Of a stretch of 64,000 nt of DNA, positions 1 to 57,700 are shown one piece after another (position 1 is the first letter of the stretch; each line of letters starts with the position of its first letter). Origin of the DNA: Ophiura sarsii (taxonomy: Eukaryota; Echinodermata; Ophiuroidea; Amphilepidida; Ophiuridae); the NCBI GenBank assembly GCA_035610835.1, contig CM069441.1:158068996-158132995 (forward strand), in the 5' to 3' direction. The position numbers and the translations under genes were made by a program. The notes beneath the pieces were generated by a model. The model was not told the origin of the DNA, ran no database searches, and saw nothing but the letters and a program-made list of their open reading frames with translations.

Positions 1-70
1 TGTCTGACAATCAGGTTCTATCCAGTTGACAAGACATCCACCATCACATTCCTACCTATCTAATACTTAC
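1..70 (-). repeat. Right end of a 71-bp array in the left gene
   Basis: One unit plus a partial unit of the 71-bp repeat (3' half of EGF exon 4, donor, about 24 bases of intron) precedes the exon 4 copy at 71-199. The array continues off the left edge. Confidence 0.9.
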
Positions 71-199
71 CTGTCTGACAATCAGGTTCTATCCAGTTGA
101 CAAGACATCCATCGCATGCCCCTGTCACTTGGTTACAAGAATCTGCATAACAGTGACACACTCCACTGCACTCGTGGCCAAAGGTAGAACCCATACAAT
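71..199 (-). CDS. EGF-like exon 4, left Tie-like gene
   Basis: Phase 1-1 EGF exon of 129 bp, bounded by an acceptor ending CTTTATAG and the donor CAGACAG|GTAAGTATT. It encodes eight cysteines in the pattern [10 protein letters not shown]...CHC...C...CDGC...C. It is one codon shorter than its paralog at 51,495-51,626. Its 3' half is the source of the 71-bp repeat that starts directly downstream (1-70). Confidence 0.85.
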
Positions 200-273
200 C
201 TATAAAGTAAAATTCGAACATGTGTCCGTGTCATTCATTTGGCCATACACTCCGCATTGAGTCTGGGATGCGG

Positions 274-21300: not shown

Positions 21301-23929
21301 TAATACTTACGATCCCCACAGTACAGAGTATGATATCTATTATTACATGTACATACATATGGATCAGGAATACAGAATATCGGATTCTTGTAGGCATTTA
21401 ATACTTACAATCCCCACAGTCCAGAGTATGATATCCAGTATTACATGTACATCCATAGGAATCAGGAAAACAGAATATCGGATTCTTGTAGGTATTTGAT
21501 ACTTACGATCCCCACAGTCCAGAGTATGATATCCAGTATTACATGTACATCCATAGGGATCAGGAAGACAGAATATCGGATTCTTGTAGGTATTTAATAC
21601 TTACGATCCACACAGACCAGAGTATGATATCTATTATTACATGTACATACATATGGATCAGGAATACAGAATATCGGATTCTTGTAGGCATTTAATACTT
21701 ACGATCCCCACAGTCCAGAGTATGATATCCAGTATTACATGTACATCCATAGGGATCAGGAAGACAGAATATCGGATTCTTGTAGGCATTTAATACTTAC
21801 GATCACCACAGTCCAGAGTATGATATCCAGTATTACATGTACATCCATAGGGATCAGGAAGACAGAATATCGGATTCTTGTAGGCATTTAATACTTACGA
21901 TCCCCACAGTCCATAGTATGATATCCAGTATTACATGTACATCCATAGGGATCAGGAAGACAGAATATCGGATTCTTGTAGGCATTTAATACTTACGATC
22001 CCCACAGTCCAGAGTATGATATCCAGTAAGTATTACATGTACATCCATAGGGATCAGGAAGACAGAATATCGGATTCTTGTAGGTATTTAATACTTAAGA
22101 TCCCCACAGTCCAGAGTATGATATCCAGTATTACATGTACATCCATAGGGATCAGGAAGACAGAATATCGGATTCTTGTAGGCATTTAATACTTACGATC
22201 CCCACAGTCCAGAGTATGATATCCAGTATTACATGTACATCCATAGGGATCAGGAAGACAGAATATCGGATTCTTGTAGGCATTTAATACTTACGATCCC
22301 CACAGTCCAGAGTATGATATCCAGTATTACATGTACATCCATAGGGATCAGGAAGACAGAATATCGGATTATTGTAGGCATTTAATACTTACGATCACCA
22401 CAGTCCAGAGTATGATATCCAGTATTACATGTACATCCATAGGGATCAGGAAGACAGAATATCGGATTATTGTAGGCATTTAATACTTACGATCACCACA
22501 GTCCAGAGTATGATATCCAGTATTACATGTACATCCATAGGGATCTGGAAGACAGAATATCGGATTCTTGTAGGTAGGCCTATTTAATACTTACGATCCC
22601 CACAGTCCAGAGTATGATATCCAGTATTACATGTACATCCATAGGGATCTGGAAGACAGAATATCGGATTCTTGTAGGTAGGCCTATTTAATACTTACGA
22701 TCCCCACAGTCCAGAGCATGATATCCAGTATTACATGTACATTCATAGGGATCAGGAAGACAGAATATCGGATTCTTGTAGGCATTTTATACTTACGATC
22801 CCCACAGTACAGAGTATGATATCTATTATTACATGTACATACATATGGATCAGGAATACAGAATATCGGATTCTTGTAGGCATTTAATACTTACAATCCC
22901 CACAGTCCAGAGTATGATATCCAGTATTACATGTACATCCATAGGAATCAGGAAAACAGAATATCGGATTCTTGTAGGTATTTGATACTTACGATCCCCA
23001 CAGTCCAGAGTATGATATCCAGTATTACATGTACATCCATAGGGATCAGGAAGACAGAATATCGGATTCTTGTAGGCATTTAATACTTACGATCCCCACA
23101 GTCCAGAGTATGATATCCAGTATTACATGTACATCCATAGGGATCAGGAAGACAGAATATCGCGGATTCTTGTAGGTATTTGATACTTACGATCCCCACA
23201 GTAAAGACTATGATATCCAGCATCCTTATAGGGATCAGGAAGACAGAATATCGGATTCTTGTAGGCATTTAATACTTACGATCCCCACAGTCCAGAGTAT
23301 GATATCCAGTATTACATGTACATCCTTAGGGATCAGGAAGACAGAATATCGGATTCTTGTAGGCATTTAATACTTACGATCCCCACAGTACAGAGTATGA
23401 TATCTATTATTACATGTACATACATACATATGGATCAGGAATACAGAATATCGGATTCTTGTAGGCATTTAATACTCACGATCCCCACAGTCCAGAGTAT
23501 GATATCCAGTATTACATGTACATCCATAGGGATCAGGAAGACAGAATATCGGATTCTTGTAGGCATTTAATACTTACGATCCCCACAGTCCAGAGTATGA
23601 TATTCAGTATTACATGTACATCCATAGGGATCAGGAAGACAGAATATCGGATTATTGTAGGCATTTAATACTTACGATCCACACAGACCAGAGTATGATA
23701 TCCAGTATTACAAGTACATCCATAGGGATCAGGAAGACAGAATATCGGATTCTTGTTGGCATTTAATACTTACGATCCCCACAGTCCAGAGTATGATATC
23801 CAGTATTACATGTACATCCATAGGGATCAGGAAGACAGAATATCGGATTGCTACAGGCATCTTCTGGATCTGTGTATCTCTGTGTACATCTAAACTCACA
23901 GTTTATACCAAATCTGTTTCCACCACAAC
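71..23929 (-). CDS. Tie-like: Tie-like receptor gene, left-hand tandem paralog (EGF exons only in window)
   Basis: Four EGF exons at 23,774-23,929, 2,129-2,263, 977-1,132 and 71-199 match the four EGF exons of the right-hand gene in order, phase and flanking intron sequence. Bases 1-2,890 align with about 51,400-54,180, including a poly-G run and a purine-rich tract, so this is a tandem segmental duplication with an offset near 51.43 kb. All four exons are open. The Ig, FN3 and kinase exons would lie left of position 1. The intron between the first and second EGF exons is about 21.5 kb because the 98-bp array has grown there and a LINE has inserted. I found no N-terminal exons between 23,930 and 31,700. 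Whether this copy is functional cannot be judged here. Confidence 0.8.
275..326 (+). repeat. Poly-G run of 52 bases
   Basis: Homopolymer in the intron upstream of left EGF exon 4. The paralogous intron has a 35-base poly-G at 51,721-51,755. True length is uncertain because such runs are hard to sequence. Confidence 0.95.
977..1132 (-). CDS. EGF-like exon 3, left Tie-like gene
   Basis: Phase 1-1 exon of 156 bp encoding VCPNDYYGTQC, then [17 protein letters not shown] and a C-terminal APGYTVYDSDN segment. The donor is CAAG|GTATGTAATT and the acceptor is ...GTTACAG. The paralog at 52,396-52,557 is two codons longer. Confidence 0.85.
2129..2263 (-). CDS. EGF-like exon 2, left Tie-like gene
   Basis: Phase 1-1 exon of 135 bp encoding [23 protein letters not shown] and [11 protein letters not shown], a classic eight-cysteine EGF/laminin-like spacing. 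The donor is CAAA|GTAAGGG. The matching exon at 53,545-53,679 has a few substitutions (for example QQCHC versus QECNC). Confidence 0.88.
2479..2660 (+). repeat. Purine-rich GGGAAA tract, left intron
   Basis: About 180 bases that are almost pure A/G on the plus strand, with irregular GGGAAAAGG words. The paralog is at 53,897-54,030. Long open frames on both strands here are composition artefacts. Confidence 0.9.
2870..2985 (-). repeat. Left remnant of the 98-bp array
   Basis: About one unit of the 98-bp EGF-derived repeat lies left of the LINE insertion. The array resumes at about 6,020, so the LINE has split it. Confidence 0.85.
3003..4730 (-). pseudogene. Reverse transcriptase of the CR1-like LINE (frameshifted)
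   Basis: A 444-residue open stretch (3,396-4,730) carries the RT signatures VTPIFKKG, RPVSLTS, YAKAFDTVPH, GVPQGSVLGPLLF and FADDTKIY. Frame breaks near 3,440 and 3,187 shift the C-terminal part, which continues as IQRRATKMV and then INQWNELPREVVNA up to a stop near 3,050. The FADD-type catalytic box and the C-terminal IQRRATK region fit CR1/Jockey-group LINEs. The element is dead as it stands. Confidence 0.85.
5127..5408 (-). pseudogene. Endonuclease N-terminus of the CR1-like LINE
   Basis: Encodes YTNAQSIMNKRHEF and PQVIGITESWIN, the start of an AP-type LINE endonuclease (the N of TNAQS and the E of TESW are catalytic in the family). The coding breaks off after about 35 residues of the domain and the rest is deleted. 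Confidence 0.75.
5590..5940 (-). pseudogene. LINE ORF1-like remnant
   Basis: The minus strand encodes KFRKVFISPDLTFQERE followed by charged KLRTELKERRE. This is the ISPDLTxxER plus basic helix commonly seen in the first ORF of CR1-like LINEs. Stops and frame changes interrupt it on both sides. Confidence 0.6.
6140..9665 (-). repeat. Duplicated 18-unit block inside the 98-bp array
   Basis: Bases 6,140-7,900 recur at about 7,905-9,665 with an offset of 1,765 bp (18 units plus 1). The order of variant units is the same (CCTACG, ATATACG, ACACAGACC, CCAGCG, AGTAAAGAC), with a very few differences. This shows recent block duplication. Confidence 0.88.
10149..22189 (-). repeat. Higher-order blocks in the right part of the 98-bp array
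   Basis: The same variant string (a unit with the 4-base TAAG insertion followed by a unit with CTTAAG) recurs starting near 10,149, 11,635, 13,605, 16,757, 17,937, 20,045 and 21,935. Spacings are 1.18 to 3.15 kb and sequence is almost identical between blocks. This indicates repeated unequal exchange or conversion of multi-unit blocks. Confidence 0.85.
23774..23929 (-). CDS. EGF-like exon 1 (Tie signature), left gene; parent of the 98-bp array
   Basis: Phase 1-1 exon of 156 bp. The acceptor is TTATTTGTAAG|GTTGTGG. It encodes [14 protein letters not shown] and then [22 protein letters not shown], closely resembling the Tie-family EGF signature [11 protein letters not shown]. The donor is GGATC|GTAAGTATT. 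Only this copy has the 5' half of the exon and a usable acceptor. The 98-bp array begins at its donor and repeats only its 3' half. Confidence 0.88.
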
Positions 23930-34800: not shown

Positions 34801-37800
34801 AGGGCGGGCTTGGGAACGGGACTACGTTTCCAACGGAACGGCCTCCCGTCAAAATAATGTTCAAGATTGTGAAAAATCCTATTTTGCAGATTTTCAACCA
34901 TAAGATAAGTCTCTTATCTCTGAGATAATCAGTGTTAAAGAAACCATCACTATATAATACTACAATGCTTATTTTTATTGTAAAAATTACCACACTTGCC
35001 CTAAAATATCATTGAAATGATGTAACTCGCCTAGAAAATGGTAGTCTCATCGCAGTATATAGACTCAAAAAGGTGTAATGTTGACGTGTATTGCGAGATA
35101 TTGGGCTCAAATGTTCAAGGAGGAGATAAACCATCGGAATAACTTCAGCGAGGAATTCTAGGCTGCCCTCACTTTGGTAAGATGTTAATTTGTATGCAAA
35201 TATTTAAGGTTGAAAAGCAAAAATGCAATGATTGCACAACTTGACGGGTACACGTTACCACGGTGACGCACACCCGTCTTATTCTAGCGCCCTCAAGAGA
35301 AACGGGCTCCCGTTCCGGAGCTGACTGCTAGTACCAATTAATGTTTTAACTGACTATATCAAATTAAAAAATATATAATGAGTAGGTCTATAACCAAACC
35401 AAGAGTAGTATAGTTTGGTATGTAGGACTACCCGAGCGGTAGGTTTCAGGAGCAGAGGCTAGTTAGTACCAATGAATATATTATCACTTTCCATATTAGA
35501 TTTACAAAGATCTGATGAGTATAACCTAACCAAGTCCAAGTATATTTGTGTTCAAAGGTGTTCATGGAATATAAGTTATGACAAGCACTTACACATCACT
35601 TTTAGTAGTATAAACCTTGCTGTCAAGGGATTCCGGAGACAGCCATCTTGTTGGAACACGTTGCTAAAATTTAAAAAACAAAAACATGTTCAACATAAGT
35701 TACACAAAATAAAATACACACGTATATTACATTATGTTAATCTGGGTTCGGTTAAATAATGTCTCGCACGGTACAGGATGTCCCAGTAGAGTTCTCGTGG
35801 CTTATACATTAAAAGAGGACAAGTTTGAATTCAAAATAATTCAATAATTCAATTATAAGTGTCTATCAAAATGGTTTTAGTTTGTTATGCGAATTGTTTA
35901 AACAGAGACATAAATGGTATCAAAACTTCTTGTACACCCTGTATCTCTTGTAATGAATTTTAACGATTACGATTAACACTGTTTACAGGCGGCCCGACCG
36001 ACAGGGTCTTATTTGTTTTGTTGAAATTAAATATATGCAGTAGTGGCTGTCAACCCGGGTTGACGATCGTGTGTCGCAGCTCTGTTAATAATATTATGTG
36101 CACAGATCATAGTAGTATTGCTTTATTTCGTAATAATAATAAGCATTAAAATCATGTCCTGTCCAATTCAATTCTAGTGGTTGAGCTACATGCCTTGCAA
36201 TGCAAAAATCCATGGTTCGATTCCCACTAGGACCACTTTCTCAACTGATTTTATCCTTTTGTAAAAGTTGGGGTAAGGAAAGTGTGTAGTTCCTACCTAG
36301 TCAACCAAGGGTTGACAGTCATGTCCACTACTGCGCATATAAATTTGAAATGGTTTTTTTCCTCCAAAAATCATTGAAATTCACCTAAACTTTAACCTAG
36401 TGACATTCTAATACCTCACCCCTCTGACCCCCTCCTCCGAGGGCTGTGCATAGATATGAAAACACAATGAACATATCAAGAAATGTACAATAGGCGATTT
36501 GTAAAGCTTACGAGACTTTATTGATGGGCTTATTTTATAAAATGAATCCGGATGATATACATACCGACGACGTCTGGACATAAATATCTTCACTACGAGA
36601 CATGCCAAAGTCTGCTACCTTTGCTGTCAGACCGTTTCCGACTAGTACATTCCTTGCGGCCAAATCACGATGAATGATCTATTCAGTAAAAAACCAATTA
36701 TGAAATACTGAATTATTGTGCAGGCATTTGTATTTAAAAAGGCACACCCATAACCATGTATATCATACGCAGGATTCTTAATACAATGGTTGTGAGTTCT
36801 ATCCCGCCTCCGGGTCCCGCCTACGGCCAGTATGTCTGTATTCTTGGGCAAGGTACTTAGTCTCAATTGCCTCGTCGAACCAAGCGAGATTGGGAAGCTG
36901 TTAGGGGTTATTACAAATTGTACGTGCTGATACGTGCGCCGTATCGGCTGCCAGGTGGAGGTAAATGAAGCGAAGTGATTGTGACGATTTCCTAATGGCA
37001 GCAAAAAAACCCGTGGTTCGGAAGTCCCGTCCGTATAGTCCCGTGCATCGGAAGAGCAATACCCGAAAACGTTAAAAAAAAGTTACAGACTCGTTCGTAA
37101 AGAGTAGGGATAATCCCGGTCTGTATCTGTTCACACATCTAACGAACACCAATGGAAATCTAATACGAGGCTTATTGGGTTATCCAGGGTCGTTAGACCC
37201 AAATAAATAATAAATTAATAAATCATTTTGTCTCTTCTAACTATCTTTTCAAAAGTTTTAAAGCAGGTTCCTCTTCGAATACGAGCGAAAAAATATAAGA
37301 GAGCATATCGTATATTTACTCTTCAATTGAAGGGTAGTAGACAAACATGTCGCTCCTTAGCATGCTGCCACACTAAAGCTTAATCTCACTTATCATATCT
37401 TAACCCACAGCTCGACAAACGAGACAATCCCTCCGCTATATCTATGGCAAACTTACACCACAGCTCGACAAATGAGACATTGCCTCCGCTATTACATATG
37501 GCAAACTTACACCACAGCTCTACAAATGAGACATTCCCTCCGCTATATATATGGCAAACTTACCCCAGGGCTCGACAAATGAGACATTCCCTCCGCTGTA
37601 TCTATGGCAAACTTACCCCAGGGCTCGACAAGCGAGACATTCCCTCCGCTATCTATGGCAACGTGACAGCACAGCTCTACAAATGAGACATTCCCTCCGC
37701 TATCTATATATGGCAAACTTACCCCAGGGCTCGACAAGCGAGACATTCCCTCCGCTATATATATGGCAAACTGACACCACAGCTCGACAAATGAGACATT

Positions 37801-40800
37801 CCCTCCGCTATTATCTATGTTAATGAACCCCACAGCACCCTCCGCTATATTTATGCAAACCAACCCCACAGTTCAACAATTGAGACATTCCCTCTGCTAT
37901 ATATTGTATATGGCAAACTTTAACATGCTTAACCCGCAGCTCGCTAAGTGAGCCATTCCCTCCGTTATATCTATCGCAACCTTACCCACAGCTTGACAAA
38001 TGAGACATTACCTCCGCTATATCTTTTGCAAACTTACCCCGCAGCTTGCTAAGTGAGCCATTCCCTGAGATATATCGATGGCAAACTTAAGAAGCTGATC
38101 TGGGCTCAACTCTGAAACGGGATTCCCTGCAATCTTCAGCTGTTGGGCATTCTTTCTACTCTTTCGCAAGAATTTGCGAAGATCTCCGAACGGCACGAAC
38201 TCAATTATTACATAAAATGTGTCTGAAATGAGCATTTTGATGAAATATAATTACACATTGGTTTGTGCAAAACTATCAGAAGTGCACAATGCGTAATTTG
38301 GCTTTATTTTGCGTCAGTTTCCCCAATTCAGCCATGTAAACAAGAAATATTTATTTTTCCTTATACATTTGTTAGTTACATTATCATGAATGTGGATAAT
38401 GTGCTATTTCATAATCCTCGGAAAAAGACATTTACACCTGTCATGCCTGTCTAACAACTCTGTTGTTGACATTTTAAAGAAAGTTTCATATTATTATAGC
38501 ATGTGGATTTATTTAGGATATTATTTTATTATATTGTATGTGACTTCAAAACCAATATAAGATGATATTGAAACATTCACAGTGCTGTATATTACAGATT
38601 ACCTTCATGGTCACAAGATCCTAAGATGTTGACAACGTTTCGATGATAGCCGACGTTCACCATGATATCAAACTCTTTCTTGAATAGAATTCCTTCTGAT
38701 TCAGGTGCACCATCTGTAATAAATATTAGTTCAAAATGTCTCTTAGTTTTCCCTTAATTTTTATATCATATACACACATTGAAATATAATTCCTGTCCAT
38801 ATTCAGGCATGGTAATAGCAATACAAACAACAACAACTATTCACAGTTTCTATACAAATGTAAAAATTAGGTAAAACGTTTGAAGCGGAATTTGTACAAT
38901 TTCGATGGGTTCTTGATCTGATGTCTTCCGCGGGTATTCTATAATATAAGGCCTTCTTAACTAACGTGTCGCATGATTAGAAACAAAAACTCTTTGAAGA
39001 TCTGATTCCACGATATTATAGTGCTAATCAAATTGTCATATTCTTTACAGCTATATAACATGTATAAACTTACACAAATAGGAACCATTTACCATAGGGT
39101 CATAAATCCGGTTGTTTGTACATTTTGCAGTTTCTGTACACTTTTTAAGGATTTCATTAGCTACATGTTGATACCCGTGTCCAAACCAGATATCGGACTA
39201 CACGATCAATCAACGATTTACACACACAAAAACTGGACGTCTTCTTTTCAAGCTGAGTTGATTTACTTTATTGCTATAATAATATGTAGGCCTAACTAGG
39301 AAAAATGTAACTGTATTCACTCACCTTTGAGGGTCTTTATAGCTGCTTTCACCCATTTCTCTTTGATCAAAACCCGTCCCAACTGAACTGTACCAAAGTT
39401 TCCTTTTCCAAGTATCTTTCCCGCGAGATCCAAGTCTTCCCAGGCTACTTCATATTTTGATGACGTCACATCTTCATACTCCATGTCATCGAGTTCAATG
39501 TCTTCATATTCCTCGTTGTCATGATGATAGGGGTTTGTCTGGAATATGCAATACAGGTCATTTAGAGAATAAATTATAGTTTGAAGCTGTTTTACTATTG
39601 ATCTCATAATGTATAGGCTGCACACAGATACGATACAGCCTAAACATTATGAGACCAACTACATGTATATCGTTTAACCAACATACGGTATAGGATCACA
39701 CAGATATTACCGTTGCATATTTAATTTTCATGATTATGGAGGACGGAAAATATTCAGTAAACTAGTGCAGGTTACAAACGATTCGAGGCTCATTCCCAGG
39801 GGCTCAATAGTGTACGAAAATATCGGTACTTCCCAAAACCAACTTGAATACCTCTTTCATGTCTTTGCCTGTAGTAGTTTCCAATGCTCCATCTTCTGTC
39901 AAGGACGGTTGGCGCCCTCTTCTTTTAAGATAGACAATCATAAGCAGACCAATGATAATGAATATGATGGCGATGGTGATACCAACAGATATGCCAATAG
40001 TTGCGCCAGTGCTGAATGTCGCTGAAGGTTCTGTGATTAATGAAATGATATTATTATAGGGGTCAAATTTGGCTAGTCATAAGGTTCGCTAGTCATAAGG
40101 GTCAGTGGTCATAAGGTTCGCTAGTCATAAGAGTCGCTAGTCATGAGTCGTTAATTTAAAAAAAGTTCGTTATTCATTATGAAAATTAATGTTCGCTAGC
40201 CATAATGTGAAATTTGGTCCGCACGTCAAACCATAACACTAATCGTAAAAGCGTAGCCGTAATCTAACCCTAACCCTGTCCCCCTAACCGTAGCCTAGTT
40301 ATGACTAGCGTTTTAAAATTACGACTAGCGACCCCTTTTTAATTATTATGACTAACCACCCTTTGTGTGTATTATGTTTAGCGAACCTTTTCCGGGACAT
40401 TTTTATATATTTATGACTGGCGGACGTTTACTTTAGTAATTATGCCCGATGACCCTATTTATTTGACTAGCGAGCCCTCTGATACGTTTATGACTGGCGC
40501 GCTGGTGGCACAGGAAAATACACATATTGACTAGCACGCCCTTATGACTTATGAACCTTATGACTAGCGATCCTAATGACTAGCGGGTGCACCTATTTGG
40601 GGCTTGATATATATACAAATTACATACACATCCTTGATCATGTTGATCAGGCCTTGGTATAAAATATGAAGTCAAGCTAGCTTCGAGCTTTGAAAAGCTC
40701 ACTTAGTTTATCCAAAGTAGCATTATAAGCAATTTTAAATGACGATCAGTTAGAACTTGCAATCCAGGTTAAAACGCCCATAAACAACAGTGATTCCAAA

Positions 40801-43800
40801 TTATCTTACGTGTGGCAGACGCAGTGGCTGGTTTTTTCTTCATTAGATGGTTATGATATCAAGCAAAAATCGTTAGTTTCACAAATTGGGAACTCATCAG
40901 TATGAAATGAAATCGTTTAACATTTTGCCGATCAAATGTTCATTTCTTACTAACCAGAATTAATCGACGTCGCCAACACATTATCGCTCCAAGGGCTAAC
41001 ACTGGCTCCGTTGTGTATTCGGATCTATCAAAATGAAAGAAAGAAAAAATCCAAATCGACAGGATATTGTAGTACACGATACGCAAAAAAAAGGTCATCT
41101 CTAGAAACGCACACTGCTATCATTGTTACGTTACGACAACGGTGTGGACCTCAATGCGCCAGATTAAATGTAAACAGTTTGTGTTCGTTTAATATTATTT
41201 CGAGACATAAATCACTTGGGGCCCATTAAAAATGGTAAACATTTTGCAACTTATATCCCGAATGGTGAAACTTTCATGAGGTGCAGTTCCCCCGGCAGTT
41301 CCCTATTAGGGATTCGGCCTATGATTTCCTTCATGTTAAATCGGAGCCAAACCAGCTTTGTATTTTGAATAACGTACGTACCCTAATAAGATAGTTGCTG
41401 TTTCCTTTGAGATCATTGATGTTTACCACTACAGAGAACTCATCATTAACGACCGTCATATACTGCTTGTCTTCAATTGTAGGAGAGACCATCTGGTATT
41501 CTATTTCGTAAGATTTGATGATACCATTGAGATTATATGGCTTAACTGCTTCCAATAATAAGGTGATAGAAGTAAGTGTGGTGCTAATTATCGTTGGTGC
41601 GATGGGTGCAGGTGGCTCTATGATAGAAGCATTGAACAATATAGTATAATGTAAAATATTGATATGTTTATGTTTATGTATAAACTGTACGAGTATAAAA
41701 ATGAAACGAAATACTGTGCCATAGTTTTTAAATGCCTAGATTTGCAACCTGCAAGACTGCAAATACAACCAAACACTCTGGTACTTGCCTTCTTCAACAG
41801 TGAAGAAGTTCAAAGACTCACTGTATGCACTCATACCAATTTCATTCCTCACAGTTACACGGATGTTGTATTCACTATATGTTTCTAAACCTCGTATGGT
41901 CGTCTCAGTTGAAGTTGTATTGATGCTTTGCTCCTGGTGGGTGTCATCTTCTGTAAGTCTATAAAACACTGTGTAGTGCAAGACTCCGGTACTGCAACGT
42001 ATTCTGTCTTCGCTAGGTGCCTGAAACACGTGGCAAAAATAAACTTGTGATCACCGGGAACGTAAGAACAAATTTAATTATATTTATTATTTAAACAACT
42101 CCAAGTTAAAAACAAAAGACAACTTATTAACAACAATATATTTGTGTTTTTTACAATTCTTTGTATCATGTTTTTCATATAAAAGCAATGAAGATTAGGC
42201 CTACCTCCAATAATGCCTATATTGGGAAATTTATGTAACATGTAACAATTTTAGTGTACATTCAAATGGAGACGACCATACTATAATATAATCAAACTTG
42301 ACATAGCATGTAAATTTAGAAAAAAAATTTAACGATAGCCTACATATAATTATTTCTTACCTCCCATCGCACCACAATTTGCTTAGGTTGATTATGCATT
42401 GCCACTAGACCCTGAGGTGGCAGAGGTTCTGCAAGGTAATACAAATTAAACAGTCATTGCATGACCATCTTTAAGAGGTCACAAAGATAGTATCAAGTTA
42501 AGGGATGCCATGTTATGAAAGTCATTTGCATAACAACTTGTTTTGAGTCATTGCTGTTTTGGCCTGATCATAACACACAACAACGAAGTGTAATTTGCGA
42601 AACGTCAACTAAACATCCCTGTGCATTATAAACGCATTGTTAGAGATTAAAGGGGCACTAAGAGATGTGTTGGAGGCTGCGCCCTCAATTATGATAAAAA
42701 CTGGGATTAGTATATGTTTATAATTGTATTACATGTATGAACTTACACCTATAAGGATTAAGAAAAATCAGCCCTCCTTGTACAAGAAAACGTCGATTCA
42801 AAAATGCTCGTAGAGCCGCAATGAGCATTTTACGTCCGACAGTATCCCCCTGCAGTACGCGTGATACATAACGCGAACCATATTTGCATAGAGGGCGTTT
42901 TTCAATAAATAGCGATGATATTGTTTTGATCAAGTTTTGCTGTGTTTTTGTTAGAAGAAACAACAATAATGGCAATTTTTAATGTTCATCTTGAATTCTG
43001 AAGTAAGTTTTTTAAACATTTAAAATTTTCAACACCACTAAATGTCCCTTTAACGTCTGATTGTTTGTTGTTGAAAAAATGCGCACATTCGGGCTAAAAA
43101 GAGATTGGGGAAATTGAACAACAAATGTTATCATCCCTGTGTTTAATATTCTTTAGATGTGTGATGTTTCGAAACGTCAACTAAACATGCCTAACGTGTT
43201 ATCAATTATAGATCATCTGAATTGTTTTTAAACATTGAAATAAAATATGCAAAATCAGGATATAAAAAGAGAGTTGGGAAATTGAAGAACAAAAAACACA
43301 TATTATCATTCATTAGATGTGTGGATTTTTAAGGATATTTTATTTACCAGCACATAACATAGTGACTATGTTTGAGTAAGATCCTCTTGGTCCTTGGCCT
43401 CCCTCATCTCCCTTAGTAGCTGCTACACTAAACACATAGTCGGACTCCAATCGTATACCTTCTATGGTTGACATCAGTACTTACCAGCACATATGGTAGT
43501 GACTGTGGCTGAGTTGGGTCCTCTTGGTCCTTGGCCTCCCTCACCTTCCCTTATAGCTGCTACACTAAACACATATTCAGTCTCCCATATTAGACCCTCT
43601 ATGGTTGACATCAAACCATTGCTTATTATATCACCATCTAACCAGGAACTACCTGATGCAAGCTTGTAATGAACTCTGGATAGAACAATAAGGAAAAAGT
43701 ACATTTCTTTTATATCAACAAAACAAACTTAGTATCTCACGTATACAAAGTGTCGTTATGTACCTTGACTTAACAAACGTCTACTAAAACATGTATACGG

Positions 43801-46800
43801 CCACAGCAACCCCCGTCAGCAACCATCTGCCATCAAGACAAAATATACCTGACCACCCTGGGCTTCTGTATGTCTTAGTGATAGACCAGTGGCGGATACT
43901 GGGGGGGAGGCGAAAAAGGTGTTCGAGCACTGACCCTAATAGCCATGTTTATTGGACCATAACAGGCACGCTATTTGAGTCACGTGAAAATCGAAACTTT
44001 TTTCTGGTAGCCTAAAGTATCCCCTTACTCATATCCCTCCCCCTTCCACACCGATCAATGTTGGGAGGCCCTGTGCTGATGGTGGGCAAATTGTGGGATT
44101 CAACATTAATCAGGGGGGGGAGGGGGATCACTTTACATTACACCTACAAAGTGTTCGAACACTTTTTTCTAACATTGTAGGTGCTGGTAGCGCGGGGAAA
44201 GGAAGACGGGTATAGTACGAAGATTCTATAGTACGACGCGTGTAAGTCCACAGTCGCTAGTCCGAATCAGATAAAAGATTATTTAGTCCGAAAAAGGGCT
44301 CCTTATTTCGAAGGTTCTCTATTCCGAAAAGAAAGAAGGAGCTAAAGTCCGACGTTTCATGAGTCCGAAAATGAAATGGGTTCTATAATTCTATTTTTTT
44401 TAAAGCGTAAAAAAAGGTCCGACAATAGAAAAGGTTCTTTAGTACGAATATTAAAAAGGTTCTTTAATCCGAATAATTTGAAGGTCTCTATAGTCCGAAA
44501 ACTGGCAAACGTTTTCCTAAACGAATGAAAAAATGATCGTTTCTCGGAAATGATTGAATCCTTTCAAGGAAAATTTAGGAAGGTCTTTGATCATTGATAT
44601 CAACTCACCTGTATGATACAACGGGTCCATCACCAATCACTCCATCCCATTCATCCCATTCAATACTGACAAATAAACCACCGATGTCTGTGACTCTAGG
44701 AGCTGTAGTAAACTCAGGCAAATCTGGAATAGAGGCAACTCTGATTGTGTTATTATTGATTAAACTTGATAGGCCTACTTTGTTCTCTGTCGTACGTTAT
44801 TTCATACATAACCTATGAGAACATTTACAGTTTGTTGGTAATTTTCCCCATCGTTTTTTGGGGTATAGTGGTAAAAGAACCGAAATCCTATTGGAAATCT
44901 TTAAGAATGGCGATTTTGATCATGCGATCCTTGCCCTTACCCCGTACACCAATAATACAACACACGACGGGAATTGAAGGTCAAATAAAGGGTTAATTTA
45001 AATTGGACAGCTAACAAAACTTGACAGTTTACTTATTTTTCAGTCGTTTATTTTCATTTTTAGGAAGATAAAATAGATTACCTATACGCTTTATACAAGC
45101 AACAATAATTTCATTGGTCAATGCACACATCACGCTCAAATAGCCGTTTCAATTCAAATCTTTGTTTTATTTACCTTGTATATTGACATACACATTGTTT
45201 TCATCAGTAAATATCTTTGCATTACAAAGAGAGACGCAGACAAGCAAATACTTATTTGGTCCGTTAATCAACTTATTCAAGAACCACTAACCAAATGATT
45301 TGGATGACTCGGTGAGAGATGCTCCTGGTGGGGTTGTTATTCTACATCCAATTGGTTCATTAGCATCTACCTGATTAACGTCAAACAACACATATCTGCT
45401 GGTATCATTGGAGGATTCAGACCGGAATGTGATGCCAGTTGTGTCTCCTCCAGATCTTTCTAGAATCACAGACTGTCTGGTGGGTGGTGGGTTGCCAGTT
45501 ACCACACAGGTAAAAACTGTTGTCTGTCCAGGGTTCACTTTAGTATTGGTTAAACTCTGCACACCTGTTATTACACATAGTTATAGAACACTTAACATAA
45601 ACACTGCACAAAAAGAAATTATCTATTTCCTCCCGCGCATTTTGACACCGCATCTGTTACAATAGCACCAATATTGATGAAGCCGTGTAGAGTTGAATAA
45701 CATATGATGAAAAGAGCGTTAACAAAACAGTAAATCTATAAAGTGTACCTGGACAATCATATTTACAATGACCAATATCATTCATGATTTTGTAAGCCAA
45801 CGCACCTGTCTCTACATTTCCGTGCCACCTTCCTTCTAACTCCAAATCGAAGAGCAACTTCAGTTACAGAAACTCCAGAAACCTTTCATGGAGAGAAAGA
45901 AGGTTGCAAGGAAATGGAGAGACGGGTGTTGGCTTACAAACGTGAATGATCCTGGTCATAGTATTAAAGGATGAGTCTCACACCAGTAGATACAGTGAGG
46001 TGTTGGAAACAATTGACGATATGAGATGTTCGGATGATGATTGTCTTTTCACGGAGAGAGAGAGAGAGAAAGAAGAGGTACACTTTATATTTGCTGTTTT
46101 GTTTACGCTCTTTTCATGGGTATAGGGTTAAGTGCAACAATAGAATCAGCATCATTTTTTATTCAAATGTCCACTGCTTCAGCAAGTTTGGTGCTATTGT
46201 ACAAATTAATTTATTTATGGTCCTAAGAATTAAACACAGGGCGCCTCTAAAAAATTGGATACTTTCTTTTTGTGCAGTGTTTATAATAATGATGATATAT
46301 AAACACTTTATATTACATTATGGCTCATAGTAACTTATCTGTCTTCAATATCGATATTTGTGGGGTTTAAAAAGGAAATTGTTGACAAGACATCCCCCAT
46401 CACATTCCTACCTATACAATACTTACCTGTCTGACAATCAGGTTCTATCCAGTTAACAAGACATCCCCCATCACATTCCTACCTATACAATACTTACCTG
46501 TCTGACAATCAGGTTCTATCCAGTTGACAAGACATCCCCCATCACATTCCTACCTATACAATACTAACCTGTTTGACAATCAGGTTCTATCCAGTTGACA
46601 AGACATCCCCCACCACATTCCTACCTATACACTACTTACCTATTTTTGAGATTATCGTTTCTCACAACAGTAAATAAGCTTACCTCTGGGATAGCTTTCT
46701 GGCAGCAATTCGCTTGCCTTTCGTCAGCCCCAATAACACGTGGGGGCGCTGTTGGCGGTTAGGCTACTTACCTGTTTGACAATCAGGTTCTATCCAGTTG

Positions 46801-49800
46801 ACAAGACATCCCCCATCACATTCCTACCTATGCAATACTTACCTGTCTGAAAATCAGGTTCTATCCAGTTGACAAGACATCCCCCATCACATTCCTACCT
46901 ATGCAATACTTACCTGTCTGAAAATCAGGTTCTATCCAGTTGACAAGACATCCCCCATCACATTCCTACCTATACAATACTTGCCTGTCTGACAATCAGG
47001 TTCTATCCAGTTGACAAGACATCCCCCATCACATTCCTACCTATACAATACTTACCTGTCTGACAATCAGGTTCTATCCAGTTGACAAGACATCCCCCAT
47101 CACATTCCTACCTATGCAATACTTACCTGTCTGAAAATCAGGTTCTATCCAGTTGACAAGACATCCCCCACCACATTCCTACCTATACACTACTTACCTG
47201 TCTGAAAATCAGGTTCTATCCAGTTGACAAGACATCCCCCATCACATTCCTACCTATACAATACTTACCTGTCTGACAATCAAGTTCTATCCAGTTGACA
47301 AGACACCCCCATCACATTCCTACCTATACACTATTGTTTTTATATTTTAACTGTTTGTTTTCATTTGTTTTAATGTTTGCGCCTCGGAATAGGTTGTCTA
47401 GATAGATGGCGCATTATAAATGCATTATTATTATTATTATTATTATTACTACTTACCTGTCTGACAAGCAGGTTCTATCTAGTTGACAAGACATCCCCCA
47501 TCACATTCCTACCTATACAATACTTACCTGTCTGAAAATCAGGTTCTATCCAGTTGACAAGACACCCCCATCACATTCCTACCTATACAATATTTGCCTG
47601 TCTGACAATCAGGTTCTATCCAGTTGACAATACATCCCCCATCACATTCCTACCTATACAATACTTACCTGTCTGAAAATCAGGTTCTATCCAGTTGACA
47701 AGACACCCCCATCACATTCCTACCTATACACAACTTACCTGTCTGACAAGCAGGTTCTATCCAGTTGGCAAGACACCCCCCATCAAATTCCTACCTATAC
47801 AATACTTACCTGTCTGACAATCAGGTTCTATCCAGTTGACAAGACATCCCCCATCACATTCCTACCTATACAATACTTGCCTGTCTGACAATCAGGTTCT
47901 ATCCAGTTGACAAGATATCCCCCATCACATTCCTACCTATGCAATACTTACCTGTCTGAAAATCAGGTTCTATCCAGTTGACAAGATATCCCCCATCACA
48001 TTCCTACCTATACAATACTTGCCTGTCTGACAATCAGGTTCTATCCAGTTGATAAGACATCCCCCATCACATTCCTACCTATCTAATACTTACCTGTCTG
48101 ACAATCAGGTTCTATCCAGTTGACAAGACATCCCCCATCACATTCCTACCTATACAATACTTACCTGTCTGACAATCAGGTTCTATCCAGTTGACAAGAC
48201 ATCCCCCATCACATTCCTACCTATACAATACTTACCTGTCTGACAATCAGGTTCTATTCAGTTGACAAGACATCCCCCATCACATTCCTACATATACAAT
48301 AATTGCCTGTCTGACAATCAGGTTCTATCCAGTTGACAAGATATCCCCCATCACATTCCTACCTATACAATACTTGCCTGTCTGACAATCAGGTTCTATC
48401 CAGTTGACAAGACATCCCCCATCACATTCCTACCTATACAATACTTACCTGTCTGACAATCAGGTTCTATCCAGTTGACAAGACATCCCCCATCACATTC
48501 CTACCTATACAATACTTACCTGTCTGAAAATCAGGTTCTATCCAGTTGACAAGACATCCCCCATCACATTCTTACCTATACACTACTTACCTGTCTGACA
48601 ATCAGGTTCTATCCAGTTGACAAGACATCCCCCATCACATTCCTACCTATGCAATACTTACCTGTCTGAAAATCAGGTTCTATCCAGTTGACAAGACATC
48701 CCCCATCACATTCCTACCTATACACTACTTACCTGTCTGACAAGTAGGTTCTCTAGTTGACAAGACATCCCCCATCAAATTCCTACCTATACAATACTTG
48801 CCTGTCTGACAATCAGGTTCTATCCAGTTGACAAGACATCCCCCATCAAATTCCTACCTATGCAATACTTACCTGTCTGACAATTAGGTTCTATCCAGTT
48901 GACAAGACATCCCCCATCAAATTCCTACCTATGCAATACTTACCTGTCTGACAATCAGGTTCTATCCAGTTGACAAGACATCCCCCATCAAATTCCTACC
49001 TATGCAATACTTACCTGTCTGACAATCAGGTTCTATCCAGTTGACAAGACATCCCCCATCACATTCCTACCTATACAATACTTGCCTGTCTGACAATCAG
49101 GTTCTATCCAGTTGACAAGACATCCCCCATCACATTCCTACCTATACAATACTTGCCTGTCTGACAATCAGGTTCTATCCAGTTGACAAGTCGTCAACTG
49201 GATGTCGTCATGTCGGGACAAGCATCCAACACTGCACCCATAAATGCTTCTGTTCCACAAGGATCTATCCTTGGTCCACTACTGTTTTCTGTCTTCATTG
49301 ATGAACTTGTGGATGTCTGTGACAACGAGCTCTACCTGTACGCTGACGATTCAACACTTTTCGCACCCATTAAGTCTTCAACCAGCTCCAACGCAGTAGC
49401 TGCTAGCCTTAACAGTGATCTAAGCAATACGAAAGCGTGGGCTGATAAATGGAAAGTGACCTTTGAGCCTACCAAGTGCAAGACCATGGTAATCTCTAGG
49501 AAGAGAACCCCATCCCAACTTGAACTCTACTTTGGTGACTGCAAGCTACCATCTGCAGACAAACTGGAAATCCTGGGTGTTACCATTAATAGCAAGCTGA
49601 CTTGGTCCAAACACATTTCGGCTGTCTCAACCAGGGCTGGCCAGAAGCTCGGCGCTCTTCGCAAGGTTGCAAATAAATTGACGGCATTCTGGTTCTGGTT
49701 CTGGTTCTGGTAGATTACTGTCCAACGCTCCTGATGGAGCCAAACGGACAGGGTGTGTGCGCATGTAATGATGTGTTTTGCTTAGTCTTGCTTGTTGCTT

Positions 49801-51719
49801 AACTCTTGCAGATGGTTTGCAAGGGTGGTCTTGAATTTCGGTAGGGAATCAATGTTTGTGATGTGTTCCGGGAGTGAGTTCCAGTCACGTATTGTGCGGG
49901 GGAAGTATGCGTGTTTGAGGCAGTCTTTGTTGGTTGCGATTTGATTGTATGCGTTACAATGGAGCTGCCGTGTACGACGCTGGGCGGGCTGTAGCTGTGA
50001 GTCAAGGGGCAAGGATAGAAGTCCAAGTCTGGCTTGTTGAAGGACTGTTAGCCTGCGAGCCAGTCTCCTGTTGGTGAGTGAGTCCCATCCGAGATCTTGT
50101 ATCATTTTAGATACACTGCCCTTGGATCTGGTTTTGAAATCTCCACACACAAATCTGGCTGATCTCCTTTGTATCATTTCCACTTTATTTTGTAAGTCCT
50201 TTGTGTGTGGGTCCCAGACCGCGGAGGAGTACTCCACTAGAGGCCGGACTAGGGTGTTGTAGGCCGCCTCTTTGGTCTTAGTTGGGCAAGAGTAAAGGTT
50301 TCTACGGATGAAACCTAGGGACCGGTTTGCCTTGGCCGTTATTTGATGGATGTGTGTGTTCCATTGGAGCTTATTTGTGATAAAGACTCCAAGGTAAGGG
50401 TGTCCATTGGTTTCACTCAGTATGTTTTCACCCAGTTTGTACTCAAAGCGCTTTGTGGAACGTGCATGTGTGAGTCTCATTACAAAGCACTTTGAGGGGT
50501 TAAACGACAATTGCCAATCCTTCTCCCATTTCACCAGTGTGTTTAGGTCGGACTGTAGCTCCTCAGAATCAAATGAATAAACATTGGGCAGATCTACTGT
50601 GTACAAATCACAAGTCCGTAGTGTAATGGAGTATGCTTCACTAGGCTGGTCTAGCGCTTCACCTACTATCCTAAGCCATCTTGACAACATCCAAAGGAAG
50701 GCACTCAAGATCATTGGAGCTCATGATGCTACTGGTCTATCGCATCTCAGCATCACAAGCCTAGTTCACCGGCGACAGGTAGCAGCAACCACGGTCTTGT
50801 ACAAAATGCATACCAACCACTGCCCACAAGATTTAGCAGCACTGCTCCCCACACCATATGTTCATCGTCGTGCTACACGTGCAAGTGTTGCAATGCCAGA
50901 TCATGCCCTTTCACTGCCACCTGCCAGAACTTGCTGCTTAGACAGAAGTTTCATCCATGCAGCTGTTCCACTGTGGAACAGTCTTCCAGTCAATGTTGTT
51001 GGCAACATCCAAGAGGAAGGACTACAATCGTTCAAATGTCGTGTTAACAGACACTTTCTCTACAACTCTTCAGAGTATGTTGGCTAAGCTCTCCCGATGT
51101 ATCAATGACCTCCAGATATTATTTTCGTCTATTTTTTTGATGTTACTCTCTATGTTTGGGTGTTTATCCTATTCCTGTCCCACGCCACTTTCATTGGCTT
51201 TTTTACTCGCCCAATTGTGTTTACTTGTATTTTTGATTATTTTCTGAGTTGCAGTGAACCAATTGATTGGCCCATCAGAGCTCTCTGTTGAGAGTTACCC
51301 GTTTGATTTGTAATCACTCAGTTCATTAACGTTGTTAATGTCTGTTGGGCTATTGTTCACATTTGCTCTTTATATACAAAAAAAAAGACATCCCCATCAC
51401 ATTCCTACCTATACAATACTTACCTGTCTGACAATCAGGTTCGATCCAGTTGACAAGACATCCTCCATCACATTCCTACCTATACAATACTTGCCTGTCT
51501 GACAATCAGGTTCTATCCAGTTGATAAGACATCCCCCATCGCATGTCCCTGTCACTTGGTTACAAGAATCTGCATAACAGTGACACACTCCACTGCACTC
51601 GTGGCCAAAGGTAGAACCCATACAATCTATAAAGTATAATTCGAACATGTGTCCGTGTCATTCATTTGGCCATACACTCCGCATTCTCCATACACTCCGC
51701 ACTCGAGTCTGGGATGCGG

Positions 51720-51756
<37 letters not shown>

Positions 51757-54700
51757 GTCGCAGGATAGCATTTCGCTAGGACACTGTCTAGGAGGTCGGG
51801 GCTCCTTTGCATGCCTTGCCTCCCCGGCTCGATGCTGTATGTCCTTTTGTATAGGAGTTGTCAAATTGGTCCAATACCAGCTAGATTCTTGTCAGGTTTT
51901 GTCCAAAAGCAGGTTCCGGCACAATAGCTCACTAACTCATTGCTTTTTAAAATGGCTCAATATCTCTATATGAATTGATCCATAGCAGATTGTTCCGGTT
52001 CACAAGCTCATTGCTTAAAATCTAAATATCAATTGTATATTGTTGTGGATGGGAGCATGGGAAATCCCGACATTGTTTTAGAATCTTGTAACAATGTATT
52101 ACTGATTGTTAAAAACACATTGTTTGTTATTGTAGTTAGGCAATGGCCTCCGTTCTCATGAATAAAAAGCTGTGAGATTCATGTGATTCTCTACACAATT
52201 TAATGCACTACATGAACAGAAAGTGGAAGTATCCAATTAATTATTATGTGCCAACAAAGTGTGCATCTCAGAGTTTTGATATGTGCTATGAATATGGCAT
52301 AAAATGCTGCAGTAGTACCTGGTCAGGAAAATGTGGGGTTTAATAAGAGAACGTTGATGTCGATTATACTTACATTTCTAAATTTAATTACATACCTTGA
52401 CAATTCACAAAGACTTCACTATCATAGATATTATACCCTGGTGCACATAGTAGATTAGGACATCCTCCAGTATTCTTGTTACATGGTGCATCATTAAGAC
52501 AATGACATTTAAGAATACATTGTGAGCCAAAGTAGTCATTGGGACATACTGATGGAACTGTATCACAAAATTAAAAATAATTTACGTTTGTTATGGTAAC
52601 AATCATCCAGATCTTGGATATTAAGTTGTAACAAGACTATGGAACCTTATGAGTTATTTGTAATAGACCGTTTTCCTATTGAAAATCTAAGGCGTTTACC
52701 GAAATGTACGAAAGTTCAACGAAATAATGTGCGACATACTAGTAATTGATATTGTTATAATAGAAGACTCGACTATAATCCGCTGTTGGTAACAAGGTTA
52801 CATATTATATGATTACTTCGAAGGGGCCAGCTAATTGTATGCCCAAACCAACATCTGGTACGTGTTAATGGATTTAAATGGAAATTGAACTCTATCTAAT
52901 ATGAAATCAAATTTGCTCAAGGACCAGAAACATTGTATTTCTATGATAATAGTTTGATGCAGCTGATGGTGTTGTTCTAGATAGACTACCCCAGTCCTGT
53001 GTCCACCGAGGGCTTCTTGTAGCGGACTTTGCTAAGCAAAGTATCAATTGTTCACTGTAGACATAATCATACACAGTCATCAAAACAAGTAACTGACCAG
53101 GTAAATAATGTGCAGAAAACTCAAAGTTTAGCTCCTGCATATACGCATATTAAATTATAAAGTTGTTCAGCAATTCCTCCTCTTTAATTTGTTCCGGTGG
53201 ATCAATACGGCACACACACTTTACCTGCCCTATGCTCCCCGTGTTGAAAAGAAAAATGTGAAAATGAAAATCGTACTTGTCCTTTCATTTTGGGATTGTA
53301 ACTTCCTCATAAATAATCAACCATTCTTAGCGCGCAACATGTTTATGTGGGAGTTCTACCTTTTATATATAGACATCAGCACATTTATAACCTGTCCAGT
53401 TATACTTGTTTGATGACTGTATTACTATTTTGAACCATAGAGAGACGGCTTAATCAGAGCTAGTGATGTTCATGACAATTATTTTAATGTTGGTAACATT
53501 TGTAAGATACACTGAAGCAATAAAGATGATGTTATAACCCTTACTTTGGCACGATGTTCCAGACCATCCTGTTTCACACACATTACCATCTTCACATGCT
53601 CCTGTGTATGCATTACATGTCCCAGATGTACAATTACATTCTTGAGTACAGCTAGCTCCAAATGTTCCTGAAGGACAAACTAAAATTGAATAAAACATTT
53701 AAAATTCCGTCCCGGCGAATTACGAATTGTATGATTTGAAACTTTAGTGAATCAAGTGCAAAAGACATCTTAAAAGTCAATAGGCTTCTGTATTGCCGGT
53801 GTGGCTATAACTACTGATCAAATAGTTCCCTGTTCATTATACATAACACCGTATTTGATTTGAAACGCAACATGTCATGTCCAGGCGTGACGGGAAGAAG
53901 AAAGGGAAGAGAAAAAGGGGAAGTAAAGGGAACAGGGGAAGGAAAGGGAAAAGAGGGACGAAAAAAGGAAAGAAAAGGAAAAGAATGGGAAGAGGAAAGA
54001 AAAACAAAGGGTATGAAGGAAAGAGTGTAAGAAAAACAATAGTTGATAGTTGATAACGAAGGCAAAATAAGAAGTGAAGAAATTCAACTATCCAAACACT
54101 TGATAATTTAATGTATAAGCGCGCATTACGTAACTTCGGTGAATTTCATCAAGGTTATCATAGGACCGGAAAGGGTAACCTTTTGTAACCTTAGGGTCGA
54201 ACTAGTGTTCACCGGGAAAAAATAATATCGAATTTTTGTAGGTATTTAATACTTACGATCCCTACAGTCCAGAGAATGATATCCAGTATTACATGTACAT
54301 CCATAGGGATCAGGAAGACAGAATATCGGGTTCTTGTAGGCATTTAATACTTACGACACCCACAGTTCAGAGTATGATATCCAGTATACATGTACATCAA
54401 CATGGACCAGGAAGACAGAATATCGGATTCTTGTAGGCATTTAATACTTACGATCCCCACAGTCCAGAGTATGATATCCAGTATTACATGTACATCAACA
54501 TGGATCAGGAAGACAGAATATCGGATTTTTGTAGGCATTTAATACTTACGATCCCCACAGTCCAGAGTATGATATCCAGTATTACATGTACATCCATAGG
54601 GATCAGGAACACTGAATATCGAATTCTTGTAGGCATTTAATACTTACGATCCACACAGTCCAGAGTATGATATCCAGTATTACATGTACATCCATAGGGA

Positions 54701-57700
54701 TCAGGAAGACAGAATATTGGATTCTTGTAGGCATTTAATAGTTACGATCCCCACAGTCCAGAGTATGATATCCAGTAATACACGTCTAGCCACCTTTCCT
54801 TTCATTATTATCTATTGTCTTTCTATTGTTGCATCAGCCCTTTATTTTGTAGGAAGAGGTCACCATTCTGGTTACGGTGTATGAACAGCCCGTTATCAAG
54901 CCAAGAGCCCATTATTAGACAAAGGATTTTGATAACGTCCTCTAGCTCACATAACGTCTTCTGCCCTGTAGTGACCTCTTCCAAAAATATTGAGCAGATG
55001 ATCAACAAGAAGACAATAGTAACAAAGAAAAGATAAGTGGATTACCTACGAAGAAGGTTTTTTAAACTATCACCTATTGGATAAGATTAACACTTTTGAG
55101 TAAACATCTCATAAAAGATTTTAAGTAGGCCTAGCAACAGTGAACATGATCAATAGATTTTTAAACTATCACCTATCGGATAAGATTAACACTTCTGAGT
55201 AAACATCTCATAACATTATTTTAAGTAGGCCTAGCAACAGTGAACATGATCAATAGTTTTTCAATAGTTTTAAATCCTGATCCTGATCAAGTATGCATCA
55301 ATGATTGAAATATAGAGACAATTATGAGTTTAAAACGGATAAATATCACACATAGTTGGCAATGGTATTTTATTGAATTTATATCGACATGCTTGCAATG
55401 AAATTTATTTATTTTAATGATAAGGTAGGCCTTATAATAATGCAATTATTACAATTTAGATCGGGATATACAATCAAGCCTTATTATTAATAGGATGTGC
55501 ATAAATAGCACCAGAAACAAACTTTATAGTAGTGGATTTTTCATTACCAATTCTTCAATTTAGGGGGAAAATTGAAAATGGTGTATCCAAGGAGGACACA
55601 CATTCGGGGACATTAAATGGGGACTCAAGGAAGGGTTTTTTATTTGATTTTTGGAATTTTTTTAGTGTGCTTTGAAAATGTCCAAATTTGAAAAAATCAC
55701 ACAAAAAAAAAACTTTTTGCAAATGTTTAAACTTTACATCATAAATCAAGCGATTTGGGCATTTTTGGAAAGGAAATGGATAAGAGAATCCAAATTTGGC
55801 ATCATTTTTAACCAAAAATTACAACAACAAAACCTTTTTGACCCAACATTTTTTAACAAAGCTAACAAAAAAAAATTGTTGTAGAAAATGTGTGTGATTT
55901 TCTCAAAAAATCAAAATGTTTGGTTAAAATTGATGCCAAATTTGGATTTTCTTATCCATTTCCTTTCCAAAAATGCCCAAATCGCTTGATTATGATGTAA
56001 AGTTTAAAACATTTGGAAAAATCACTTTTGTGGCAATTTTTGGTCAAAATTTCAAAAAAATATTGGATTAGGTTAAAAAATGAGAACATTTTGGATTCTC
56101 TGATTCATTCCTTTCCAAAACTACTTTTATATACATTTGAGTCAGCATTCACAAAATTCAAAAAAGTGACTTTCTTGAGTCACCCACCCTTTAAATGGGG
56201 TGTGGACCCTCAGCATAGCCTCCGTAATACTGCTGTAACTCCTCCATTATTCATTTAAAAAGGGTCCATTATGAACATGAAATTCACAATTTTGAAAAAA
56301 ATAAATAAAAACACGGGTTTTTGACCCATTTTAGGTTTTGTCAAGATAAGTGCCAACAATTTTATTTTCATGATTTTGGAGGTAAACAAATCACATTTTC
56401 AAGACGTCAATTGGGGAACCGAACAGCAAATTAGTATATATAGGCCTAATATAAAATATATAAAAACACGGTTTTGACCCATTTTAGGTTTTGTCAAGAT
56501 AAGTGCCAACAATTTGATTTTCATGATTTTGGAGGTAAACAAATCACATTTTCAAGACGTCAATTGGGGAACCGAACAGCAAATTAGTATAAAAACAGTG
56601 GCGGCGCCAGTAACACTGTTGGTGTTGTTGGGGGAGGGTCAATCAGGGGTGGGGGTCAAACTGAAACGGGGGGCGAGAGGTTGGGCAAGAAAAAATGTTG
56701 GGGCAAAATACATTTTTGAGTTCGCGCCCGTGAAATATCATTCATTAATGCAACAAGGCCTAAATTAACTGAATTTAAACTATTTCAAATAAATGTATGT
56801 AATTTTAATATAAAAAGTAAACATTTTCGATTGGTTGGGATCCAAATGCGTAGGGCTTGTTGGTGAGCTGACTGGGAGGGCAAAGAGGTCATGATATTAT
56901 TATTTTGTTTTCCGTATAAATCTATACGCAACTAAGAAGACGCTGAAATCTAAAATATGTGTAATATAATAATGTAGTAGAATACGATACAAAATCATAG
57001 ATAACTCACATTCTCTTATAGTTTTCTTGTCAAGTCCCATGAACATGTACTGTAAAAATAGGTATTTTCCAAGTATATCCAAACATTCAAATGCGTAGTC
57101 CTTATTATCGGCGATAGTTTACAAGACTTCATTTGATCTTGGTAATGAAGACACTCTCGGTTGCATGGATTTCGAAGATGGTATAACATTAGGATCATCA
57201 GACGAAGAACCAATGTGATGTTATCCTGATGAAAGTTGATGGCCTACTGATACACCTGACCGATCAGTTAAAAGAACTGCAGATTATGCTAATTCCTTTA
57301 TATCGACTATTAAGTTTGTGTTGTACCACATTATATAACTAAAGTAGCTCATGGGTCAAATAATCTACTTGCTTAAGCCAGAGGACAAATCGTTTTATTG
57401 AACCAATTCTAATGTTTATATAATAGTCCGTTGGCAGAGCCATTTGACCTCAAAATGAAGTATGCGGGAAGTTTTATGACTATTTCTGGGTGACTTTGAC
57501 GTGCTGATTTCAAATCTGGATGATGCCAACTCGTAGATGTTGAGCGTTTTGAGAAATAAGGGGGTAAAGTTCTGTGAGGGGGAAATTTTCAAAATTACTC
57601 TACAGACACAACTAATATATCACATTATAGGTCTATGTTTACTGATCACAAAAATATATAGTTTGACATGGTTATGACTTATATTATTGAAGTTATAAGG

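Follow-up and report, generated by a model that had tools for sequence, protein, structure and literature searches.

The 64,000-nucleotide window analysed here, positions 158068996-158132995 of contig CM069441.1 (C1) in the Ophiura sarsii assembly GCA_035610835.1 (1,573,662,873 bases in 748 contigs), holds a minus-strand receptor kinase gene in which four exons continue past their donor sites into tandem arrays of their own terminal sequence. The parts of this gene run in the order EGF-like exons, an Ig-like exon, three FN3 domains, a transmembrane segment and a tyrosine kinase; Pfam matched the kinase and three fn3 stretches, while the EGF, Ig and transmembrane labels were assigned from the sequence by eye. 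Twenty-eight homologues were returned, with echinoderm proteins at the top (for example, Lytechinus pictus 'angiopoietin-1 receptor-like' and Patiria miniata 'Tie-1-like'), and we refer to the gene as a putative Tie-like receptor kinase. All 16 minus-strand exon models begin after an AG acceptor; 13 end at a GT donor and two at a GC donor, and the end of the model K4 was placed 3 bases short.

Five copies of the gene were found in the window and in sequence fetched from its neighbourhood and from another contig: G2, which lies inside the window; G1, downstream of it; a copy on contig C4, which we call by that name; and, elsewhere on C1, a copy P and a partial fifth copy. Self-comparison of the window matched 126-2830 to 51553-54172 at 88.6%. 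A 100-N assembly gap at 25795-25894 separates G2 from G1, so their spacing is uncertain, and EGF1 and EGF2 of copy P were not found in sequence up to 158,008,996. Searching the genome with PF07714 gave at least 150 matches, mostly kinase domains in a single open frame that are uninformative on exon boundaries.

The exons that continue into arrays are EGF1 (98-bp unit), EGF4 (71 bp), the second exon of the first FN3 domain (FN3-1b, 137 bp) and kinase exon 3 (53 bp). Tandem Repeats Finder (TRF), the exon models, exon probes and reading of the sequence agree that each unit crosses the exon-intron boundary of a coding gene: it starts mid-exon, runs through the complete donor and takes in a few intron bases, and growth is into the intron only. 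The units contain neither the acceptor nor the 5' part of the exon, and are thus not whole exons with both splice sites. An earlier note, made from the window's sequence alone, had recognized these four arrays, and their common design is real; several of its particulars were less accurate. It placed them all within 37402..51626, which is right for the EGF4, FN3-1b and kinase arrays of G2, whereas the EGF1 arrays of both copies lie elsewhere in the window (Table 1). The intron part, put at 10-25 bases, measures ~11 for EGF1, 8-12 for EGF4, ~7 for FN3-1b and 5-6 for kinase exon 3. FN3-1b has indeed been copied in tandem, but in G2 there is just one extra copy; and although a donor is always part of the unit, it is not GTAAGT in every case, as the G2 EGF4 exon's own donor is GC (GCAAGT). 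All four unit lengths leave a remainder of 2 when divided by 3, which we regard as chance.

Table 1. Array-bearing exons, their arrays and the copies of the Tie-like gene. Positions are those of the window unless a contig is named.
Feature	Position	Strand	Basis or remark
EGF1 exon, G2	60867..61022	-	exon model; AG acceptor, GTAAGT donor
First EGF1-derived repeat copy, partial, adjoining the G2 exon	60801..60866	-	reading, self-match
Rest of G2 EGF1-derived 98-bp array	54224..54782	-	TRF (54224-54782), reading; ~6 kb of other sequence between exon and array
EGF1 exon, G1	23774..23929	-
G1 EGF1-derived 98-bp array, ~180 copies	6033..23773	-	TRF (6093-23849, two rows), unit alignment
G1 EGF1 array tail, past a reverse-transcriptase-like insertion	2870..2986	-	ends approximate
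EGF4 exon, G2	51495..51626	-	exon model; authentic donor GCAAGT
G2 EGF4-derived 71-bp array, first part	51385..51494	-	TRF (51385-51544)
G2 EGF4-derived 71-bp array, main part	46381..49191	-	TRF (46381-47330, 47450-49190), unit table
EGF4 exon, G1	72..200	-	boundaries approximate
G1 EGF4 array, start	1..71	-	runs ~4.8 kb further, left of the window
FN3-1b exon	43485..43675	-	exon model
FN3-1b tandem copy, single	43348..43484	-	TRF (43344-43613), reading, probe; last ~130 exon bp + ~7 intron bases
Kinase exon 3	38038..38222	-	exon model
Kinase-exon-3-derived 53-bp array, diverged	37402..38037	-	TRF (37399-37819, 37928-38089), unit alignment, array ends
Gene copy G2	inside window	-
Gene copy G1	downstream of G2	-	part of it left of the window
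Gene copy P	C1:157.94-157.98 Mb
Gene copy C4	C4:35.82-35.84 Mb
Partial fifth gene copy	C1:149.88 Mb

With the exon end counted in, 179 units could be aligned for the G1 EGF1 array and 12 for the G2 kinase array; the unit table of the G2 EGF4 array has 38 rows, covering its main part, first part and exon end. This last array is interrupted, chiefly at ~49200-51380. Open frames there and at 3399-4733 in the EGF1 array look reverse-transcriptase-like by their motifs. Two further sets of repeats were rejected as members of the group: 53-bp arrays of G1 at 158049741-158052163, which contain inverted blocks and in which we saw no similarity to the gene's exons, and a 128-bp array in the K5 intron of G1, which is intronic though its unit holds GTAAGTGAG.

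Other features of the gene copies were noted in passing. Long G runs at 275-326 and 51721-51755 occupy equivalent places in both window copies, close to the EGF4 exon, and the intron after the G2 EGF1 exon contains a 189-bp tandem repeat (59321-60175) in which no exon similarity was noticed. The FN2b exon of G2 ends at 41789 in a GC donor, GCAAGT, that P and C4 have as well, pointing to a common GC-AG intron; the diverged FN2b of G1 has GTAAGT, unlike the other three.

The earlier note knew of no named class of repeat built in this way, but two published systems share the design. In amphioxus, minisatellite-like tandem duplications across exon-intron boundaries, termed 'mirages', are described in PMC3087553 and PMC3902484 for Adh3, the globins BflGb6 and BflGb9, troponin C and PGBD5; as here, many units carry splice signals and evolve in concert, and PGBD5 has more than one, as does the Tie-like gene. 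Their units span 10-160 bp. Mirages are also reported at 3' boundaries, whereas the echinoderm arrays are of the donor type, reach ~180 copies and have intron parts of 5-13 bases; regular splicing was checked by reverse transcription PCR for the globins, whereas the present analysis is of DNA. The second system is a human variable number tandem repeat (VNTR) at the exon 13/intron 13 donor of CBS, c.1444_1467+7(16_21), reported in PMC2630376. Its 31-bp unit, 24 exon and 7 intron bases going by the variant name, likewise joins the end of an exon to a short piece of intron and contains the complete donor; it differs in its shorter unit, in its 16-21 copies and in being polymorphic in people.

We therefore read the arrays as further examples of this known class, that is, as donor-type exon/intron-boundary minisatellites whose first donor is spliced and whose extra copies are nearly neutral in the intron, with a probability of about 0.82. 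A short tandem duplication from inside the exon to a few bases beyond the 5' splice site would leave the exon-proximal donor to make the normal exon, so the extra copies would land in the intron and be close to neutral; the array donors would be tolerated because the first donor still yields a normal exon. Later slippage or unequal exchange would expand and homogenize the arrays, in the case of EGF1 to ~180 copies. When the frame is continued beyond the authentic donor, a stop codon comes no later than intron position +21 in 11 of the 13 exon copies tested, and later in EGF4 of G2 (+84) and FN3-1b of G1 (+153).

The arrays have been inherited through duplication of the gene. Those of kinase exon 3 and FN3-1b are present in all four longer copies (G1, G2, P and C4), that of EGF1 in G1, G2 and C4, and that of EGF4 in G1, G2 and the partial copy, where it has three units including the exon's own, and not in C4 or P; the earlier note's process 'acting repeatedly' in one gene is supported by this distribution. 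The kinase arrays of the four copies have an identical 3' boundary, GTTAAGATA, which in P and G1 is directly followed by small indels; at the exon breakpoint, CTTAAG, there is a 5-bp microhomology, TTAAG. No clear microhomology was seen on reading the FN3-1b junction. The last donor of the G1 EGF4 array leads into the ancestral intron, as it is found in the array-less C4 and P. Probably, the EGF4 array is younger than the kinase and FN3 arrays, because its carriers are mostly nearer each other over EGF3 and EGF4 (G2-G1 0.947, G2-149.88-Mb copy 0.925, G1-149.88-Mb copy 0.919) than G2 is to either non-carrier (C4 0.908, P 0.875), even though G1 is as close to C4 (0.919) as to the partial copy; alternatively, it may have been lost in C4 and P. 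In these comparisons, FN2a, FN2b and FN3b were omitted from the long alignment and the partial copy was compared on EGF3 and EGF4 only.

Copy number varies widely from gene copy to gene copy, and one exon end has exactly the sequence of an internal array unit; the arrays thus show the copy-number instability and concerted evolution of mirages. The identity concerns the exon end and intron start of G2 EGF4 (51541-51471, 71 bp), which match the internal unit 48069-47999 exactly. The two stretches share a V-to-I codon and the GC donor, each of which occurs in G1's array and not in G1's exon. From this pattern, the sequence most likely passed out of the array and into the exon, through conversion or unequal exchange.

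Donor-bearing arrays are not confined to the Tie-like gene; they occur in several genes of the genome, although a genome-wide excess at donors is not established. Pairs of the word CAGGTAAGT spaced 40-70 bases apart number 662 in the genome, against 195 for the reversed word. Families were read from the 100 matches listed for each (for CAGGTAAGT, on C1 and on C2 to 91.9 Mb), and many of the reversed-word matches listed fall in two dispersed repeat families. Grouped by hand, the matches listed on C1 form six families for CAGGTAAGT and three for the reversed word, so the raw excess largely tracks array length. No excess is seen for pairs of AAGGTAAGT (283 versus 343 reversed) or for the acceptor word TTTTGCAGG (58 versus 128), the latter count being uncalibrated for the word's frequency in real acceptors.

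Eight donor families outside the Tie-like gene appeared among the CAGGTAAGT matches listed, and we read the four that looked exon-like by eye, leaving aside C1:97060005, C1:101523231, C2:60403871 and C1:7719379, the last of which consists of one pair and is perhaps not an array at all. In each of the four families that were read, an AG is followed by an open frame that enters the array, and the unit runs from mid-exon through the donor into ~5-13 intron bases. Searches of PDB sequences matched these exons to EF-Tu, best to mitochondrial EF-Tu (TUFM; E 2.5e-9); to WD40 proteins, with TAF5 the best match in one stretch over all 60 residues (1.9e-32) and other WD40 chains, matched in several stretches, scoring above it; to CHTF18 (1.2e-4); and, tentatively, to mitochondrial ClpP (0.21). 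The 61-bp units of the TAF5-like array (C2:91903200-91903800) hold TTTCTGTAG as well as a donor and might thus be recognized as mini-exons.

Across all eight arrays in these five genes, the intron breakpoint falls between +5 and +13. Against a uniform expectation for units of 53-137 bp, this clustering is significant (one-sided Kolmogorov-Smirnov p 5.8e-6, Fisher p 9.6e-4), with the inputs being hand-read junctions at their larger compatible value and four of the eight arrays having been selected by hand. This narrow range weighs against the reading we favour, in that neutral tolerance leaves it unexplained. So does human CBS, in which more repeats are reported to go with lower enzyme activity (review PMC5188458), so such arrays need not be neutral.

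Survivor bias alone is a rival explanation, and we put it at even odds: duplications would arise everywhere, and those overlapping exons would last only if the exon stayed intact, that is, if they spanned the donor with at least 5-6 intron bases. The smallest intron parts, 5-6 bases, correspond to the requirement for GTAAG(T), and the background of arrays is high, with 10 arrays of period at least 40 in six arbitrary 10-kb stretches of this minisatellite-rich genome and 44 in 234 kb of gene-copy sequence. In a chance model of the G2 gene (25.1 kb minus arrays; 20 exons, the ends of four being approximate), a random unit of 53-137 bp is donor-type with a probability of 0.019-0.071; the probability of at least four donor-type arrays is 1e-4 if 7 arrays are assumed, 0.012 for 21 and 0.039 for 30. 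Such bias explains the lower bound of the intron part and not the upper bound of 13, and the narrow window is to that extent unexplained.

The earlier note proposed a shared mechanism anchored at 5' splice sites. A mutational process of this kind would form junctions preferentially just past the stretch bound by U1 or forming the donor, for example at the edge of an R-loop or of polymerase stalling, with the nascent strand then slipping back to a point inside the exon. We consider this possible but doubtful. In its favour are the confined breakpoints of all eight arrays, the recurrence of the design in four unrelated genes, the 7 intron bases likewise taken by the CBS unit and the raw CAGGTAAGT excess; the last is offset by the family counts and by AAGGTAAGT, and half of the arrays were chosen by eye. 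Probes of 61 exon copies (16 from G2, 15 from G1, 14 from P and 16 from C4) found donor-spanning same-strand copies at EGF1, EGF4, FN3-1b and kinase exon 3, as well as at the G1 transmembrane exon, and by the same probe criterion no acceptor-spanning copies in these four gene copies; yet a 4:0 split between donor and acceptor gives p 0.06. Mirages, moreover, are published at both boundaries, and upstream of the G1 transmembrane exon lies a degenerate whole-exon duplicate (C1:158042073-158042310, read by eye) carrying a donor and an acceptor-like CTCAG followed by a short insert, so boundary duplication is not strictly donor-only. This is one degenerate case of tandem whole-exon duplication, from which the four arrays differ in having neither the acceptor nor the exon's 5' portion. 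Support for a donor-anchored mechanism is therefore mixed, neither showing nor excluding it. A fuller version, in which recurrent tandem duplication with one breakpoint pinned 5-13 bases into the intron at the donor/U1 edge and the other in the exon builds minisatellites in many genes and can return copies to the coding exon by gene conversion, appears to us a little less probable still.

That the array donors themselves have a function, whether as decoys, as U1 platforms or as regulated alternative donors, is improbable. GT is retained in most copies (171 of 179 in EGF1-G1, 26 of 36 in EGF4-G2 and 42 of 50 in EGF4-G1), as in mirages, where splice signals persist in many units though not in every one, and the length of the human CBS VNTR is reported to affect activity (PMC5188458). 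However, ranked from low variability among the 6-mers of the unit, the donor hexamer GTAAGT comes 36th of 93 in EGF1-G1, 59th of 66 in EGF4-G2, 52nd of 66 in EGF4-G1 and, in the kinase arrays, 33rd (G2) and 40th (G1) of 48; in the EGF1-G2 block, which has 7 units only, it comes 18th of 93. GC is common in the EGF4 arrays (10 of 36 in G2, 8 of 50 in G1), and copy number is very different between gene copies. Nothing in the variability ranks suggests selection on the array donors, which, being no more conserved than the rest of the unit in the larger arrays, look like passengers. Assembly artefact or misplaced haplotypes, for which the gap between G2 and G1 and the high heterozygosity of the brittle star Amphiura filiformis (PMC11310086) might speak, are very improbable, as the kinase and FN3 arrays recur on both C1 and C4 and those of the kinase exon have a common 3' boundary.

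Boundary minisatellites in recently duplicated genes, like those described here, are also known from human segmental duplications, in which internal tandem repeats at exon-intron boundaries modify introns (PMC2812944); there, transcripts are reported to gain new introns from the repeats, whereas no new intron is shown for the arrays here. Human IFI6 (6-16), too, has a minisatellite that, going by a title, contains multiple splice donor sites. Among the titles listed by a literature search aimed at echinoderm boundary minisatellites, none described any, which is no proof of absence. With the Tie-like gene, boundary minisatellites are known from an echinoderm as well as from lancelets and humans. 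One gene family here has four such arrays, of which most are common to several gene copies, and donor arrays occur in conserved housekeeping genes as well. The exon end that matches an array unit base for base suggests an ability of these arrays to overwrite coding sequence, even the authentic donor. The tight breakpoint just past the donor is a concrete hint that the site at which a tandem duplication begins is influenced by splicing or by its DNA context.

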